From: Bifidobacterium boum
Lineage (GTDB): Bacteria > Actinomycetota > Actinomycetes > Actinomycetales > Bifidobacteriaceae
DNA: 64,000 nt
NCBI RefSeq assembly: GCF_000741535.1
Contig: NZ_JGYQ01000002.1
Coordinates: forward strand, 1 to 64,000
Direction: 5' to 3'
A program made the position numbers and the translations under genes. This document shows positions 10,555 through 42,068 of this stretch, in pieces (the first letter of the stretch is position 1; the number at the start of each line of letters is the position of its first letter). The notes beneath the pieces were generated by a model that worked only from the letters and a program-made list of their open reading frames with translations, did not search any database and was not told the origin of the DNA.

Positions 10555-13500
10555 ATGGATTCTTCGCCGGCATATCCTTTCAGCACCCGTGACCTCATCC
10601 ATATCGGATTCCAACGGTTGGATGAGGCACGATCGGCGTTCACCACGCTCGATGCATACGGCGTGGATGCCGAGCATATCCGCCACATCGCCGACGCATT
10701 GGCGAGCGCCCTCGACCCGGACACCGCTCTCGACAACCTTGTCGGCATCATCGAAAGCTTGCCTGCCCACGATGACGGCCTGCACTCCATTCTCGAGGAT
10801 GATACCGCAGCTCGCAAGCTCATCGCCGTGCTCGGATCCAGCGACAAGCTGGGCAAACTCATGCGCACCCGACCCGATCTGATCCGCGCGGCAGCCCTTG
10901 ACCCATGCCGTAGCTGCGATTACAACCATGCGCAGCGGGTGGCCAAGCTTCTTGACGCCGTGCAGGCGGTAAGTCTCGAGTTGGGGGATGCGCAGTCGGA
11001 GGGCCAGACGCATCTGGCCTACGAATCATCCCTGCCGTTGGCTGAGGCTACCGACCGCCTGCGTGCCGCTTACCGTCGTCAACTCGCTGCCATCATCGCG
11101 GTCGATGCCACGGCGGAGCATCCTGATGATATTCAGCCGCGAATCAGCAAGGCACTCTCTGATCTCGCAGACGCCGCGCTTGAAGCGGCGCTCGCCATCG
11201 CCCGGCATGAGACCCCGGACAGCGCGCGATGCCGGTTCAGCATCATAGGCATGGGCAAGCTGGGAGCCCAAGAACTCAATTACGTCTCCGATGTCGATCT
11301 GATCTATGTGGTCGAACCCACCGACAGCGATACGAGTGCCACCATGCTCACGCGCATCGGCACCCGTCTAGGCACCATGCTGCAACGCGTCTGCCAATCC
11401 GTCATCGCGGGATCCACCGAACCGCCATTATGGCAGATCGACGGCGGTCTGAGACCTGAAGGCAAAGACGGCCCACTGGTCCGGCGTCTCGAATCGCACC
11501 GCACGTATTACGAGCAGTGGGCGCAGAACTGGGAATTCCAAGCGCTGCTCAAAGCCCGTCCCGCCGCAGGCGATAGCGAACTGGCGCAAGCCTACCTTGA
11601 CATGACCCGCCCGTTCGTCTGGTCCGCATCCAAACACGACAATTTCGTCCAAGACTGCCAGCAGATGCGTCAACGTGTCGAACGGCTCATCCCCGATAAT
11701 CTCAAAGACCGAGAAATCAAACTCGGCCGGGGCGGGCTCAGGGACGTCGAATTCACCGTGCAAATGCTGCAGCTGGTCCACGGGCGTTCCGACACGACAT
11801 TGCGCAAACGCGGCACGCTGGACGCGCTCAAAGCGCTCGCGGACGGCGGGTACGTCTCGCGCAAGCAATCCGTGAAACTCGCCGAGGACTACCGGTTCGA
11901 ACGCGTGCTCGAACATCGTCAGCAAATGTGGGAACTCAAACGCACCCACCTATTCCCCGATTTGGGGGCCGGCAGCATCGGCGGTCTTGAACGCAAGCGG
12001 GATATCGATCTCGACGCGTTGAACCACAACATGGAACTCCGACGGCTCGCACGCGTGTTCGGCCTGCATCCCGAAGAACTCGTCGAACGCTACGATGAGA
12101 CGCGACGCGAAGTCAGACGGTTGCATTTGGACATCTACTACCGGCCGATGCTGCCAATCAGCGCGCGCATGAACGACGACCAGATCACCCTGTCCGACCA
12201 GGCGACCCGCGAACGGTTCGAATCCATCGGCTTCGCCGACCCGGACGCCGCCATGCGGCACGTCAAAGCACTCACCTACGGGCTGTCACGCGCCGCGCGC
12301 ATCAACCGCATCATCCTTCCAGCCGTCCTCCAATGGCTCGGCGAAGGGCAGAATCCGGATATGGGATTGCTCAACTGGAGACGCTTGGAAGAACATTTCG
12401 GCGAGGACAGCGACTACTTGGGGTTCCTGCGTGACTCCCAATCCGCCGCACAACGGCTGTGCCACATCCTATCCAATTCGCGGTTCCTGGGTGATGCGCT
12501 CAACCGTTCGGTCGAATCCGTGACCTGGCTGGGCGATGACGACGAGCTCCGACCACGCACCCGAGCCAGTCTCGACGTACAATGCGACGGCATCATCACC
12601 CGCAACCAGTCAAGCTTGAAAGACGCCGCCACACTACTGCGAGCCATGAGACGACATGAAATCGAACGCATCGGCCTGGGTTGGATGAGCGGTGTAATCG
12701 ACGACGACGCCACCCTGACCGGCATGACCGACGTGTATGACGCGATCATCGACGCCGCCTTGTGCTGGGCATTGGAGCACCGCCGCGACATGATGGGCTT
12801 GGACGGGTATCCAGCGGACATCACGGTCATCGGCATGGGACGGTACGGCGGCAGGGAAATCAACTTCAGCTCCGATGCCGACGCGATACTCATCTACCGG
12901 GCAAATGACGCAGGAACAGACGGGCAGGAGACACCCGACGAGGCGCTCGCCGGCTCGTATGCCAGGCAGGTCACCGACGATGTCCGTGCGCTGCTGCAAG
13001 GACCGTCCACCTTGGAACCACGCATCGATTTGGATCTCGACCTGCGTCCGGAAGGCAAGAACGGGCCGCTGATTCGTTCCTACGCCTCCTGCGAGGAATA
13101 CTACGGGTCGTGGGCGAGCACGTGGGAGCGCCAAGCGTTGATCCGTGCGCGATTCGCCGCCGGGGACAGTGTGCTCGCGCATGATTTCCTGACAAACATC
13201 GCCGACCCGATGCGCTATCCGACCTCGCCGTTGACCGACCAGCAGATCGGCGAAATCCGCAAGCTCAAAGCCCGTATGGAAGCCGAACGCCTGCCGAGGG
13301 GAGTACGTCGCGACCGGCATCTGAAACTCGGCAAAGGCGGCTTGTCCGACGTGGAATGGACCGTGCAGCTGTTGCAGCTCGAACACGCCGGCACCTGCCC
13401 GCAGCTTCGCACCGGCTCCACGATGGGGGCGCTCGAGGCGCTTGAAGCCGAAGGAATCGTCGGGCGCAAAGATACGGACACGCTGCGTCGCGCATGGCGG

Positions 13501-39347: not shown

Positions 39348-39395
39348 ACGCAAATCCGCCCTGCCTTCAATGTGGGAGGCAGGGCGGATTTGCGT
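39348..39395. terminator. Terminator hairpin after secG
   Basis: A perfect 18-bp stem (39348-39365 with 39378-39395) encloses a 12-nt loop, 24 nt after the secG stop. There is no T tract. Confidence 0.75.
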
Positions 39396-39480
39396 ATACG
39401 CGGGTAAGGTGACCGAGGCCAGCGGCATAATCCGGCATGAACCGGTTATTGTTGGTATAGAGCGATACGGAAGGATACGA

Positions 39481-40362
39481 ATGGGCAGGCAAGCATATAC
39501 AATGCGGACGGGAACATTCCCGAATACGGTTCGCGATGTTCGGCTCGTGGTGGCCGACTTGGACGGGACGCTCATGCATGACGCGCCGACATTCGAAGAG
39601 CGGTTCCTCACAAGCCGCGCGGTCGATACCATATGGCGTATGCATGATGAGTACGGCGTGAGGTTTGCCGTCGCAACCGCTCGACCCGTCAGCACCGGAT
39701 ATGACGTGGTTTCTCGCTTACCGGTAGACGCTTGCGTATATCTCAATGGCGCGCTTATTGATATGAATCCAATGTCATCCGACGTGGACATGCTGACCAG
39801 TGGTGTGCTTCCCGATGACGGGCATCTGCTGAAAATCGGTTTCTCCTCACAGCGAGCCTGCGAAGTCTGTCGTTTTCTGGTACATGAGCTTCCCGGTCTG
39901 AAGATCGGTATCGTGATGGATGACGTGCGGTACACGAATTTCGATGTGAGTGTGTATTGGAAAACCCAGACTTTTGTCATCACGGACTTCACCGACGTGC
40001 CGCAAGGTGTCGCCGATAAAATCATCATCTTCCCTGACCCACAGCAGTGGACGGTGCTGGGTTCGCTGGTTCCCGACGATTTCTCCGTGAGTATTTCCGA
40101 AGGATCGATGTGGATGCTCATGAACCCGCTGGCGAACAAGGAGCAATCGCTGAACACTATCTGTGCGGCGATGGATATTCCGCTCACCCAAACGGTTGCG
40201 TTCGGCGATGACCTTATCGATATCGCCATGATGCGGCGGTCGGGAACCGGTGTGGCGGTGTCAAATGCCAATCCGAAAGTACTCGCCATCGCCGATGACA
40301 TCTGCCCATCCAACAATGAGGATGGCGTAGCCCAGTGGATTGAACGATACTGGCGTTTCTAA
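39481..40362 (+). CDS. Cof-type HAD family hydrolase
   Basis: This 293-residue class IIB HAD protein has motif I DLDGTLMHD (Asp26, Asp28), the GVRFAVATARP segment, a cap domain in the middle, and motif IV FGDDLIDIAMM followed by GVAVSNANPKV. It is likely a sugar-phosphate or nucleotide-related phosphatase, but the substrate is unknown. ATG 39481 follows GGAAGGA; the longer upstream frame crosses the secG hairpin. The gene stands by itself and is followed by the operator-rich region of the aminotransferase fusion. Confidence 0.85.
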   Translation: MGRQAYTMRTGTFPNTVRDVRLVVADLDGTLMHDAPTFEERFLTSRAVDTIWRMHDEYGVRFAVATARPVSTGYDVVSRLPVDACVYLNGALIDMNPMSSDVDMLTSGVLPDDGHLLKIGFSSQRACEVCRFLVHELPGLKIGIVMDDVRYTNFDVSVYWKTQTFVITDFTDVPQGVADKIIIFPDPQQWTVLGSLVPDDFSVSISEGSMWMLMNPLANKEQSLNTICAAMDIPLTQTVAFGDDLIDIAMMRRSGTGVAVSNANPKVLAIADDICPSNNEDGVAQWIERYWRF

Positions 40363-40389
40363 AAGGATTTCGCCTTGTGCCAACAGGAT

Positions 40390-40509
40390 TTGAACGGTTT
40401 GTGATTTGAACCCTGTCGATAAGCGATGAAAAGTTCAATGTTTGGACACGAGGTTCAACGATGTACGGTCGGTGATATAGTATCTTCTAAGATTGAACCA
40501 AACTTGAAC
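40390..40509. promoter_or_regulatory. Promoter region with six TTGAAC/GTTCAA half-sites
   Basis: Half-sites are TTGAAC at 40390, 40406, 40493 and 40504, and the reverse complement GTTCAA at 40433 and 40453. The promoter is probably GTTCAA (40453-40458) as a poor -35, a 17-nt spacer and TATAGT (40476-40481). One half-site lies over the -35 and two follow +1, 11 nt apart, one DNA turn. The fused HTH of the downstream gene is the obvious candidate ligand. Confidence 0.6.
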
Positions 40510-40520
40510 TTTGGAGTGCC

Positions 40521-42068
40521 ATGGCAGAAGGAACTTTCGCGCAACGTCTCACTGAGGCGATGCGGCAACGCGGCCTCAAGCAGATAGACGTTGTCAGGCG
40601 CGCACCACAATACGGTATCCATCTCGGCAAAAGCCACGTCAGTCAGTATGTCAGCGGAAAAACCGTTCCGCGCGCCGATACGGCCCGCGCTCTGGCCGCG
40701 ATGCTCGGGGTCAACCAGGCTTGGCTGCTAGGGGAGAGCGACACAATGGCCCCGTCACAAGACGCGTCTTCTTTCAACACCGAGGACGCGCCATCGGTTT
40801 CTTCCCCATCTGATCCATCGCCCGCCACGTCTGCATCTACGAAAGGAACCACCATGCGGCATTTCGGCAAATCATCAAAGCTTGACAATGTGCTCTATGA
40901 CGTCAGGGGGCCGGTCGTCGATGAAGCCGCCCGCATGGAAGCAGCCGGCACGCATGTGCTCAAGCTCAATATCGGCAACCCCGCGCCATTCGGCTTCCGT
41001 ACCCCGGATGAGGTCGTGTACGACATGGCGCAGCAGCTTACCGATTGTGAAGGCTACTCTGATTCCAAAGGCCTGTTCTCCGCTCGTAAAGCCATCATGC
41101 AATATGCGCAGATCAAAAACATCCCGAACGTCAGTATCGACGGCATCTACACCGGTAACGGTGTCAGCGAGTTGATTAACCTGAGCATGTCAGCACTGTT
41201 GGATAATGGTGACGAAGTGCTCGTCCCTTCGCCTGATTATCCGCTGTGGACGGCTTGCGTCACGCTTGCCGGCGGAACAGCAGTTCACTACGTGTGTGAC
41301 GAACAGTCGGAATGGTATCCGGATATCGAGGATATGCGACGTAAGATCACCGATCATACCAAGGCGATTGTCATCATCAACCCCAATAATCCGACGGGTG
41401 CCCTGTATCCGCCCGAAGTCCTCCAACAGATTGTGGATCTTGCCAGGGAACATCAGCTGATGATTTTCTCCGACGAAATTTATGACCGTCTGGTCATGGA
41501 CGGCCTCAAACATGTCTCCATTGCGTCGATGGCTCCCGACCTGTTCTGTGTGACGTTCTCCGGGCTGTCAAAATCGCACATGATTGCCGGGTACCGTGTC
41601 GGATGGATGGTGCTCAGCGGCAACAAAGCGATTGCAAAGGATTATATTGAAGGCTTGAACATGCTCACCAACATGCGGATCTGCTCGAATGTGCCTGCGC
41701 AATCGATTATTCAGACGGCACTCGGCGGCCATCAAAGTGTCAACGATTATATTGTGCCGGGAGGCAGGATTTATGAGCAGCGCGAATACATCTATCAGGC
41801 GCTGAACTCCATTCCTGGAGTATCCGCAGTCAAACCGAAAGCTGCATTCTATATCTTCCCCAAGCTTGATGTCAAACGTTTCGGCATCAAGAACGACGAG
41901 AAGTTCGCACTCGACCTGCTTCGTGAGCAAAAGCTGCTCATCGTCCAAGGCAGCGGCTTCAACTGGCAGCATCCCGATCATTTCCGTGTCGTATATCTGC
42001 CACGTATCGAAGTGCTGAAGGATGCAACCAGCAAGTTGGAGACCTTCCTGTCAACCTATCACCAGTGA
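40521..42068 (+). CDS. HTH domain-aminotransferase fusion (AlaA-like)
   Basis: Residues 5-65 form a Cro/C1-type helix-turn-helix (FAQRLTEAMRQRGLKQIDV...SHVSQYVSGKTVPRADTARALAAML). A Ser/Pro/Thr linker (about 75-110) follows. The rest is a class I PLP aminotransferase with NPNNPTG, SDEIYDRLV and the PLP Lys351 in SGLSKSHMIAGYRVGW. From residue 112 it matches alanine transaminase AlaA (KSSKLDNVLYDVRGPV). GAAAGGA stands 7 nt before an internal ATG at 40854 (codon 112), so a 404-residue free enzyme may also be made. The full start is ATG 40521 after GGAG. The enzyme probably makes alanine and senses or regulates its own gene. Confidence 0.88.
   Translation: MAEGTFAQRLTEAMRQRGLKQIDVVRRAPQYGIHLGKSHVSQYVSGKTVPRADTARALAAMLGVNQAWLLGESDTMAPSQDASSFNTEDAPSVSSPSDPSPATSASTKGTTMRHFGKSSKLDNVLYDVRGPVVDEAARMEAAGTHVLKLNIGNPAPFGFRTPDEVVYDMAQQLTDCEGYSDSKGLFSARKAIMQYAQIKNIPNVSIDGIYTGNGVSELINLSMSALLDNGDEVLVPSPDYPLWTACVTLAGGTAVHYVCDEQSEWYPDIEDMRRKITDHTKAIVIINPNNPTGALYPPEVLQQIVDLAREHQLMIFSDEIYDRLVMDGLKHVSIASMAPDLFCVTFSGLSKSHMIAGYRVGWMVLSGNKAIAKDYIEGLNMLTNMRICSNVPAQSIIQTALGGHQSVNDYIVPGGRIYEQREYIYQALNSIPGVSAVKPKAAFYIFPKLDVKRFGIKNDEKFALDLLREQKLLIVQGSGFNWQHPDHFRVVYLPRIEVLKDATSKLETFLSTYHQ

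Follow-up and report, generated by a model that had tools for sequence, protein, structure and literature searches.

An array of putative operator half-sites before a gene joining a phage-CI-type DNA-binding domain to an alanine aminotransferase-like domain in Bifidobacterium boum

In the 64,000-nt stretch of Bifidobacterium boum DNA analysed here (the window), four copies of the hexamer TTGAAC and two of its complement GTTCAA are crowded into 120 nt (40390–40509), between a HAD-type hydrolase gene (39370–40362) and a gene (40521–42068) encoding a 515-residue fusion of an XRE-type helix-turn-helix (HTH) domain, a linker and a class I aminotransferase domain. Why is the gene of a probable enzyme preceded by such repeats, and which protein would read them? 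An earlier note on this DNA had taken them for the operator of a multimeric repressor and named the HTH of the next gene as the nearest candidate reader.

The array, its promoter and the fusion protein

The six half-sites were reproduced in exact count, position and orientation, and their expected number by chance, put at ~0.06 in the earlier note, was recomputed as about 0.05–0.09 per 120 nt; across the whole window, TTGAAC/GTTCAA occurs 46 times where shuffles expect 27.7. Local conservation was assessed by aligning four B. thermophilum-group genomes, the window's included. Half-site 1 (TTGAAC; 40390–40395, + strand) is absent from the three nearest relatives, and half-site 2 (TTGAAC; 40406–40411, +) and half-site 3 (GTTCAA on the + strand; 40433–40438, −) are kept in 4/4 genomes. 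Half-site 4 (GTTCAA on the + strand; 40453–40458, −), which is GTTCAA in two of the four genomes and GTTCAT in two, stands at the −35 position, 17 nt ahead of a likely −10 box (TATAGT; 40476–40481, +; kept in 4/4). The promoter of the fusion gene is therefore likely to consist of GTTCAA, a 17-nt spacer and TATAGT, with a predicted +1 at about 40488. Half-site 5 (TTGAAC; 40493–40498, +) lies just past this predicted +1, and half-site 6 (TTGAAC; 40504–40509, +) follows 11 bp later, shortly before a likely ribosome-binding site recognized by eye (GGAG; 40513–40516, +); both are kept in 4/4 genomes. Thus the claims that one half-site covers the likely −35 and that two lie past +1 with an 11-nt period agree with the sequence, given the predicted +1. 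A generic promoter scan returned no match at the array, since GTTCAA makes a poor −35. A seventh TTGAAC (40340–40345, +), inside the 3′ end of the preceding HAD-type gene, is doubtful as a part of the operator.

The encoded protein, which is 88–90% identical to those of B. thermophilum and B. apri, comprises three parts: (i) the HTH domain (residues 1–73; 40521–40739, +), with the recognition-helix motif GKSHVSQY; (ii) a linker of low model confidence (residues about 74–110; 40740–40850, +); and (iii) an AlaA-like aminotransferase domain (residues 111–515, with the stop codon; 40851–42068, +), assigned by Pfam and PDB matches. In the Pfam search the N terminus matched HTH_31, HTH_3 and HTH_19, all just below their curated cut-offs, and no GntR-type HTH was listed; the C-terminal part matched PF00155, the class I aminotransferase fold, with an E value of 1.8e-53. 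The best solved relative of residues 111–515 is the glutamate-pyruvate aminotransferase AlaA of Escherichia coli (PDB 4cvq; E 1.5e-170), which matches these residues only and has no HTH part, and the NCBIfam alanine aminotransferase model scored 372.7 bits, under its cut-off of 534 bits. The motif GLSK, which we take to hold the PLP (Schiff-base) lysine, was found in 69/69 full-length fusions and in 34/34 HTH-less proteins, so that the aminotransferase part is probably active. A full-length structure model, with a mean pLDDT of 66 in the aminotransferase part, was used for the linker only.

Distribution and geometry of the array among relatives

Loci for comparison were picked by protein similarity, independently of the motif. 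A fusion orthologue was found in 83 of the 112 genomes of the genus (in G077 as two pieces), and all 83 carry 3–12 half-sites within 250 nt upstream; 12 of them (L152–L163) come from small genomes of 1.5–1.8 Mb, presumably Gardnerella-like. The best 80 relatives in named genomes comprise 43 fusions (9 from Bifidobacterium) and 37 proteins without HTH. The other 34 of these fusions belong to Lachnospiraceae, Coriobacteriia and further Clostridia, many being metagenome-assembled genomes, with Coprococcus comes, Butyribacter intestini, Thermophilibacter mediterraneus and others as isolates; within 250 nt upstream, at least one TTGAAC was found in 34/34, at least two in 30/34 and at least three in 27/34.

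Before counting, upstreams of identical sequence were removed together with L001 (which duplicates L002), and L077 and L092, in which no start was found, were left out; the start of L137 was placed a few codons late. The protein sets omit identical proteins and the short frames L064 and L108. Half-sites per 200 nt averaged 4.49 in 118 distinct fusion upstreams vs 0.18 elsewhere in the same loci, with 0.19 expected from a Markov model. One fusion upstream (L058) has no TTGAAC in 200 nt, the nearest being at −217. For the 35 HTH-less AlaA orthologues the mean was 0.11 per 200 nt (31 with none, 4 with one); this set includes L076 and L087, both site-free, the latter with a frame broken at its start and a match to query residues 48–515, and leaving out these two gives none in 29/33 and one in 4/33. 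The conservation in relatives on which the earlier proposal depended was thus found, in two phyla and parallel to the presence of the HTH domain, and a role as an operator for the next gene's HTH is strongly supported by this sequence comparison. Chance, or shared descent alone among close relatives, is the least probable of all explanations, close to negligible: many of the 83 orthologues are indeed near relatives and counts of sequences differ from counts of events, but the array is present in 32 thinned non-bifidobacterial upstreams that share <5% of 12-mers and differ in positions and spacings, and chance would provide only 0.18 half-sites per 200 nt.

On a tree of 84 aminotransferase domains, some HTH-less rows fall among the fusions, and the HTH label needs six changes, at least four of them by well-supported branches. 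The tree covers 84 of 103 full-length proteins, including 11 of the 30 in L002–L031 and none of L112–L164 (upstream parts only), and its root is a midpoint only, so gains and losses of the HTH are not separable. The presence of the HTH matches that of the array in 82 of 83 rows under a criterion loosened after a first trial, from at least two TTGAAC (under which L034, L040, L048 and L058 were misses) to TTGAAC plus TGAACT counts of at least three; L076, with 162 nt upstream, was excluded from the contrast and phasing analyses. Only three well-supported independent contrasts are available, all in the expected direction, which puts significance out of reach. The case rests on the size of the enrichment and on its recurrence in dissimilar upstreams of two phyla.

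The spacing of the half-sites was consistent with recognition from one face of the helix. Same-strand spacings concentrate at 11, 21–22, 40–44, 53–54 and 62 bp, and a 10.5-bp phase was found for same-strand pairs both in 32 thinned non-bifidobacterial arrays (R 0.374; 100 pairs) and in 38 thinned Bifidobacteriaceae arrays (R 0.305; 184 pairs), with jittered controls as high in 0/2000 for each. Opposite-strand pairs were phased in the non-bifidobacterial set (6/2000 controls as high), and in the Bifidobacteriaceae set their phasing was not significant (339/2000). The 70 thinned arrays contain 247 neighbouring pairs, of which 162 have both half-sites on one strand and 6 form CI-like palindromes; no neighbouring half-sites of the window form such a palindrome. 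The ‘multimeric' repressor of the earlier note fits such phasing.

In 11 fusions of the Bifidobacterium genus (L142, L144, L066, L149, L146, L148, L052, L151, L138, L133 and L055), 4–11 TTGAAC/GTTCAA lie within the DNA coding for the linker. The observed count was matched in 0–33 of 1000 shuffles of synonymous codons inside the linker, and in 0–4 of 1000 when codons followed the usage of that gene's aminotransferase part, figures that are optimistic as these 11 were picked because of their linker sites. The sites stand in more than one frame or orientation in 10/11 fusions, and in L142 part of them form a perfect 36-nt tandem repeat. This excess, together with the several frames and orientations, suggests that the linker half-sites are kept by selection on DNA. 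Linkers outside a hand-picked set of loci of this kind carry 0.36 sites per 200 nt, near the 0.26 of the aminotransferase part, and the window's own linker has zero.

Relation to phage CI repressors and aminotransferase-based regulators

A PDB sequence search with the HTH domain gave only four matches, all to the CI repressor of Lactococcus phage TP901-1 (E 9e-10 to 6e-9). Its structure model (pLDDT 91.8) likewise placed TP901-1 CI at ranks 1–4 of a fold search (best E 6.6e-4), of which rank 3 is a CI structure with a bound operator half-site; as the HTH is a small common fold, E falls below 0.001 for rank 1 only. The published CI half-site consensus is AGTTCAYR, and a change of its central C to G is reported to have severely weakened binding by the phi13 CI (PMC8516035); the OL operator is given as AGTTCATGAAACGTGAACT (PMC4941734). 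The window's TTGAAC(T), equivalent to (A)GTTCAA, is identical in its core to the published CI half-site AGTTCA/TGAACT, a core common to TP901-1, O1205 and phi13, whose CI HTH domains are homologous to that of the fusion and which also have several half-sites around promoters.

A phage search yielded 100 records with a related HTH. In 14 of 15 phage repressor regions examined, 4–9 NTGAAC were found in about 450 nt upstream, with most of the remainder sparser; FP_Brigit, whose recognition helix is different, is the exception. Phages O1205, Javan220, phiNJ2, Javan536 and Javan271 (GKSALSQY) have mainly TTGAAC, and TP901-1, bIL285, phi13 and phiEf11 (SKSTLSQY) mainly ATGAAC or GTGAAC. The idea that one recognition-helix residue determines which base comes first in the half-site is contradicted by Javan377 (GKSALSQY; 3 TTGAAC vs 4 ATGAAC), Javan235 (5 vs 3), Lj928 (TKTDLSQY; TTGAAC predominant) and the KSQL fusions: fusions with KSH helices have 4.6–5.1 TTGAAC per region, six KSQM fusions 1.67 TTGAAC and 1.50 ATGAAC, and 18 KSQL fusions 3.28 and 0.06, respectively. 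Given these mixed counts from phages and fusions, the first base varies with lineage, unexplained by any single residue; the motif [KRN][SN]xxSQY is present in 118/118 fusions.

Two further observations came from the phage records. In O1205-type Streptococcus phages (L168, L169, L172, L173 and L176), TTGAAC lies upstream of the CI gene, mostly as GTTCAA-N4-TTGAAC palindromes, and by this comparison these sites appear to be variants of the TP901-1 operator. The two records with the best HTH match, L165 (MT839198.1) and L166 (MT839381.1), both labelled ‘Bacteriophage sp.', were rejected as phage relatives, as they carry the whole fusion gene and look bacterial; they are short unverified records from human faeces and probably mislabelled bacterial DNA.

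The nomination of the next gene's HTH as the reader therefore gains from its homology to a phage repressor domain with the same half-site core. The fusion as a whole is no CI repressor: the C-terminal part of phage CI is an oligomerisation domain whereas residues 111–515 of the fusion are an aminotransferase, and phage CI half-sites pair mostly as palindromes with a start distance of 10–11, whereas those of the fusion are mostly direct repeats. We consider it well supported, with a probability of about 0.87, that the repeats are operator half-sites read by the HTH of the gene they precede, which would make the product an autorepressing aminotransferase with a phage-CI-type DNA reader.

The closest logic, by analogy, is that of the MocR regulators, described in PMC5320631 as head-to-tail aminotransferase dimers with a flexible linker, whose direct repeats lie on a single face of the DNA at a distance of two or three turns. 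MocR/GabR proteins resemble the fusion in combining an HTH, a linker and a class I aminotransferase fold, and in having direct repeats at whole helical turns. However, their HTH is of GntR type and that of the fusion of XRE/CI type, so the fusion is not a MocR; furthermore, its aminotransferase part is AlaA-like with the lysine motif, and its arrays reach 12 half-sites. In the open-licence PubMed Central literature, no account of such a fusion or of its operator was found. Enzymes that also regulate genes, such as PutA, are known as trigger enzymes. The fusion would be akin to these as a probable enzyme with a DNA-binding head on its own gene, but differs by its phage-CI-type head and its phased multi-site array.

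Targets and a possible mechanism of autorepression

Elsewhere in its own genome, half-site pairs 10–40 bp apart (three orientations) were found at 22 places, with no three linked: 20 of these places fall within long ORFs, one holds an inverted repeat in the gap separating two ORFs and the remaining one, at 11987 of the window, is inside a 1071-codon open frame. A wider regulon of such closely spaced pairs in this genome was therefore set aside, all of these pairs but the intergenic inverted repeat being in open frames. Within these pair patterns there is no second half-site cluster, so one dedicated target, the fusion's own gene, is the simplest reading. It is very improbable that the array is the operator of a separately encoded regulator, the HTH of the fusion being incidental: in a comparison that covered, among the XRE proteins of the genome, the HTH of the fusion, the array accompanies this domain of the fusion protein itself, the family of this HTH has the same half-site, and the pair patterns revealed no second array.

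Over the 112 genomes, a three-site pattern had matches in at least 63; among the matches listed, many are at the fusion locus and others lie away from it, some repeat-like or apparently coding. Two three-site TTGAAC clusters distant from the fusion gene (G056:C17:22352-22414 and G044:C4:52163-52206), in two relatives, might represent second targets or have arisen by chance. TTGAAC clusters also stem from a repeat of roughly 21 nt resembling TTGAACACTGACTGTAGG (G020:C1:60212, G020:C14:47614, G031:C14:341445, G070:C3:354182 and G070:C7:240118), seemingly unrelated to the fusion locus.

At the promoter, TTGAAC stands exactly 17 nt before a TATAAT-like hexamer (at least 5/6 letters) in 23 of the 34 non-bifidobacterial fusions among the best 80 relatives, vs at most 6 of these 34 for any other spacer from 0 to 59, and in those 23 the half-site is the −35 box; the −35 of the window is a reversed half-site. 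A loose −10 follows at 17 nt for 10% of + sites over all 118 regions (about 3% at other spacers), and at 16–18 nt in 46/118 regions. A resemblance of TTGAAC to TTGACA, together with the −35-like placement of one copy in many relatives, could make the repeats overlapping −35 boxes or a 5′ untranslated RNA element with no operator. This is hardly credible, since both orientations are present, a −10-like box follows at 17 nt for only 10% of + sites, the sites are helically phased and depend on the HTH, and there is no Rfam match. An RNA element was discarded as no Rfam family was found at E up to 1 within 40200–40700, and a tRNA-like repeat as ARAGORN found none within 39500–41500.

As the array recurs before fusions of two phyla and is nearly absent without the HTH, the enzyme most likely represses its own gene. 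Mechanistically, the aminotransferase part would dimerise, as its class does, and carry two HTH heads on flexible linkers; these heads would hold pairs of half-sites on one DNA face, for the most part direct repeats separated by one, two, four or more turns. Half-sites over the −35 and just past +1 would block RNA polymerase, from which repression of its own gene would follow, and the flanking half-sites may contribute avidity or looping. Finally, the HTH heads may shift with active-site state (PLP, amino acid, keto acid), so that the enzyme would double as a sensor. Repression in preference to activation we infer from the site positions alone, and ligand control of the fusion is a guess, by analogy with MocR regulators only.

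Another reading retains the same HTH and the same sites, with activation, or with repression but no sensing, the aminotransferase being a dimerisation scaffold or an independent enzyme. The many half-sites upstream of the promoter speak for it; however, a half-site as the −35 in 23/34 of the above fusions and the two window half-sites past the predicted +1 suit repression, and we regard this alternative as less likely than not, though more probable than a separate regulator. The fullest form of the autorepression reading is held tentatively, at somewhat less than even odds: a phage-CI-type reader joined to a working alanine aminotransferase would act at once as an enzyme, as a sensor of metabolites and as a repressor of the gene encoding it, common to Actinomycetota and Bacillota together with its operator code; its MocR-like binding of direct repeats would have arisen separately from that of the GntR-type MocR proteins; and the operator would, in some Bifidobacterium, have spread into the DNA that encodes the linker.

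Read as an operator, the array would provide a specific DNA code for a regulator that 83 of the genus's 112 genomes carry, as do other gut bacteria. The comparison suggests that phage repressor heads can be re-employed in metabolic sensors, and points to at least two origins for regulators that combine an aminotransferase fold with direct-repeat operators. The link of aminotransferase dimer geometry to operator layout thereby becomes directly testable.
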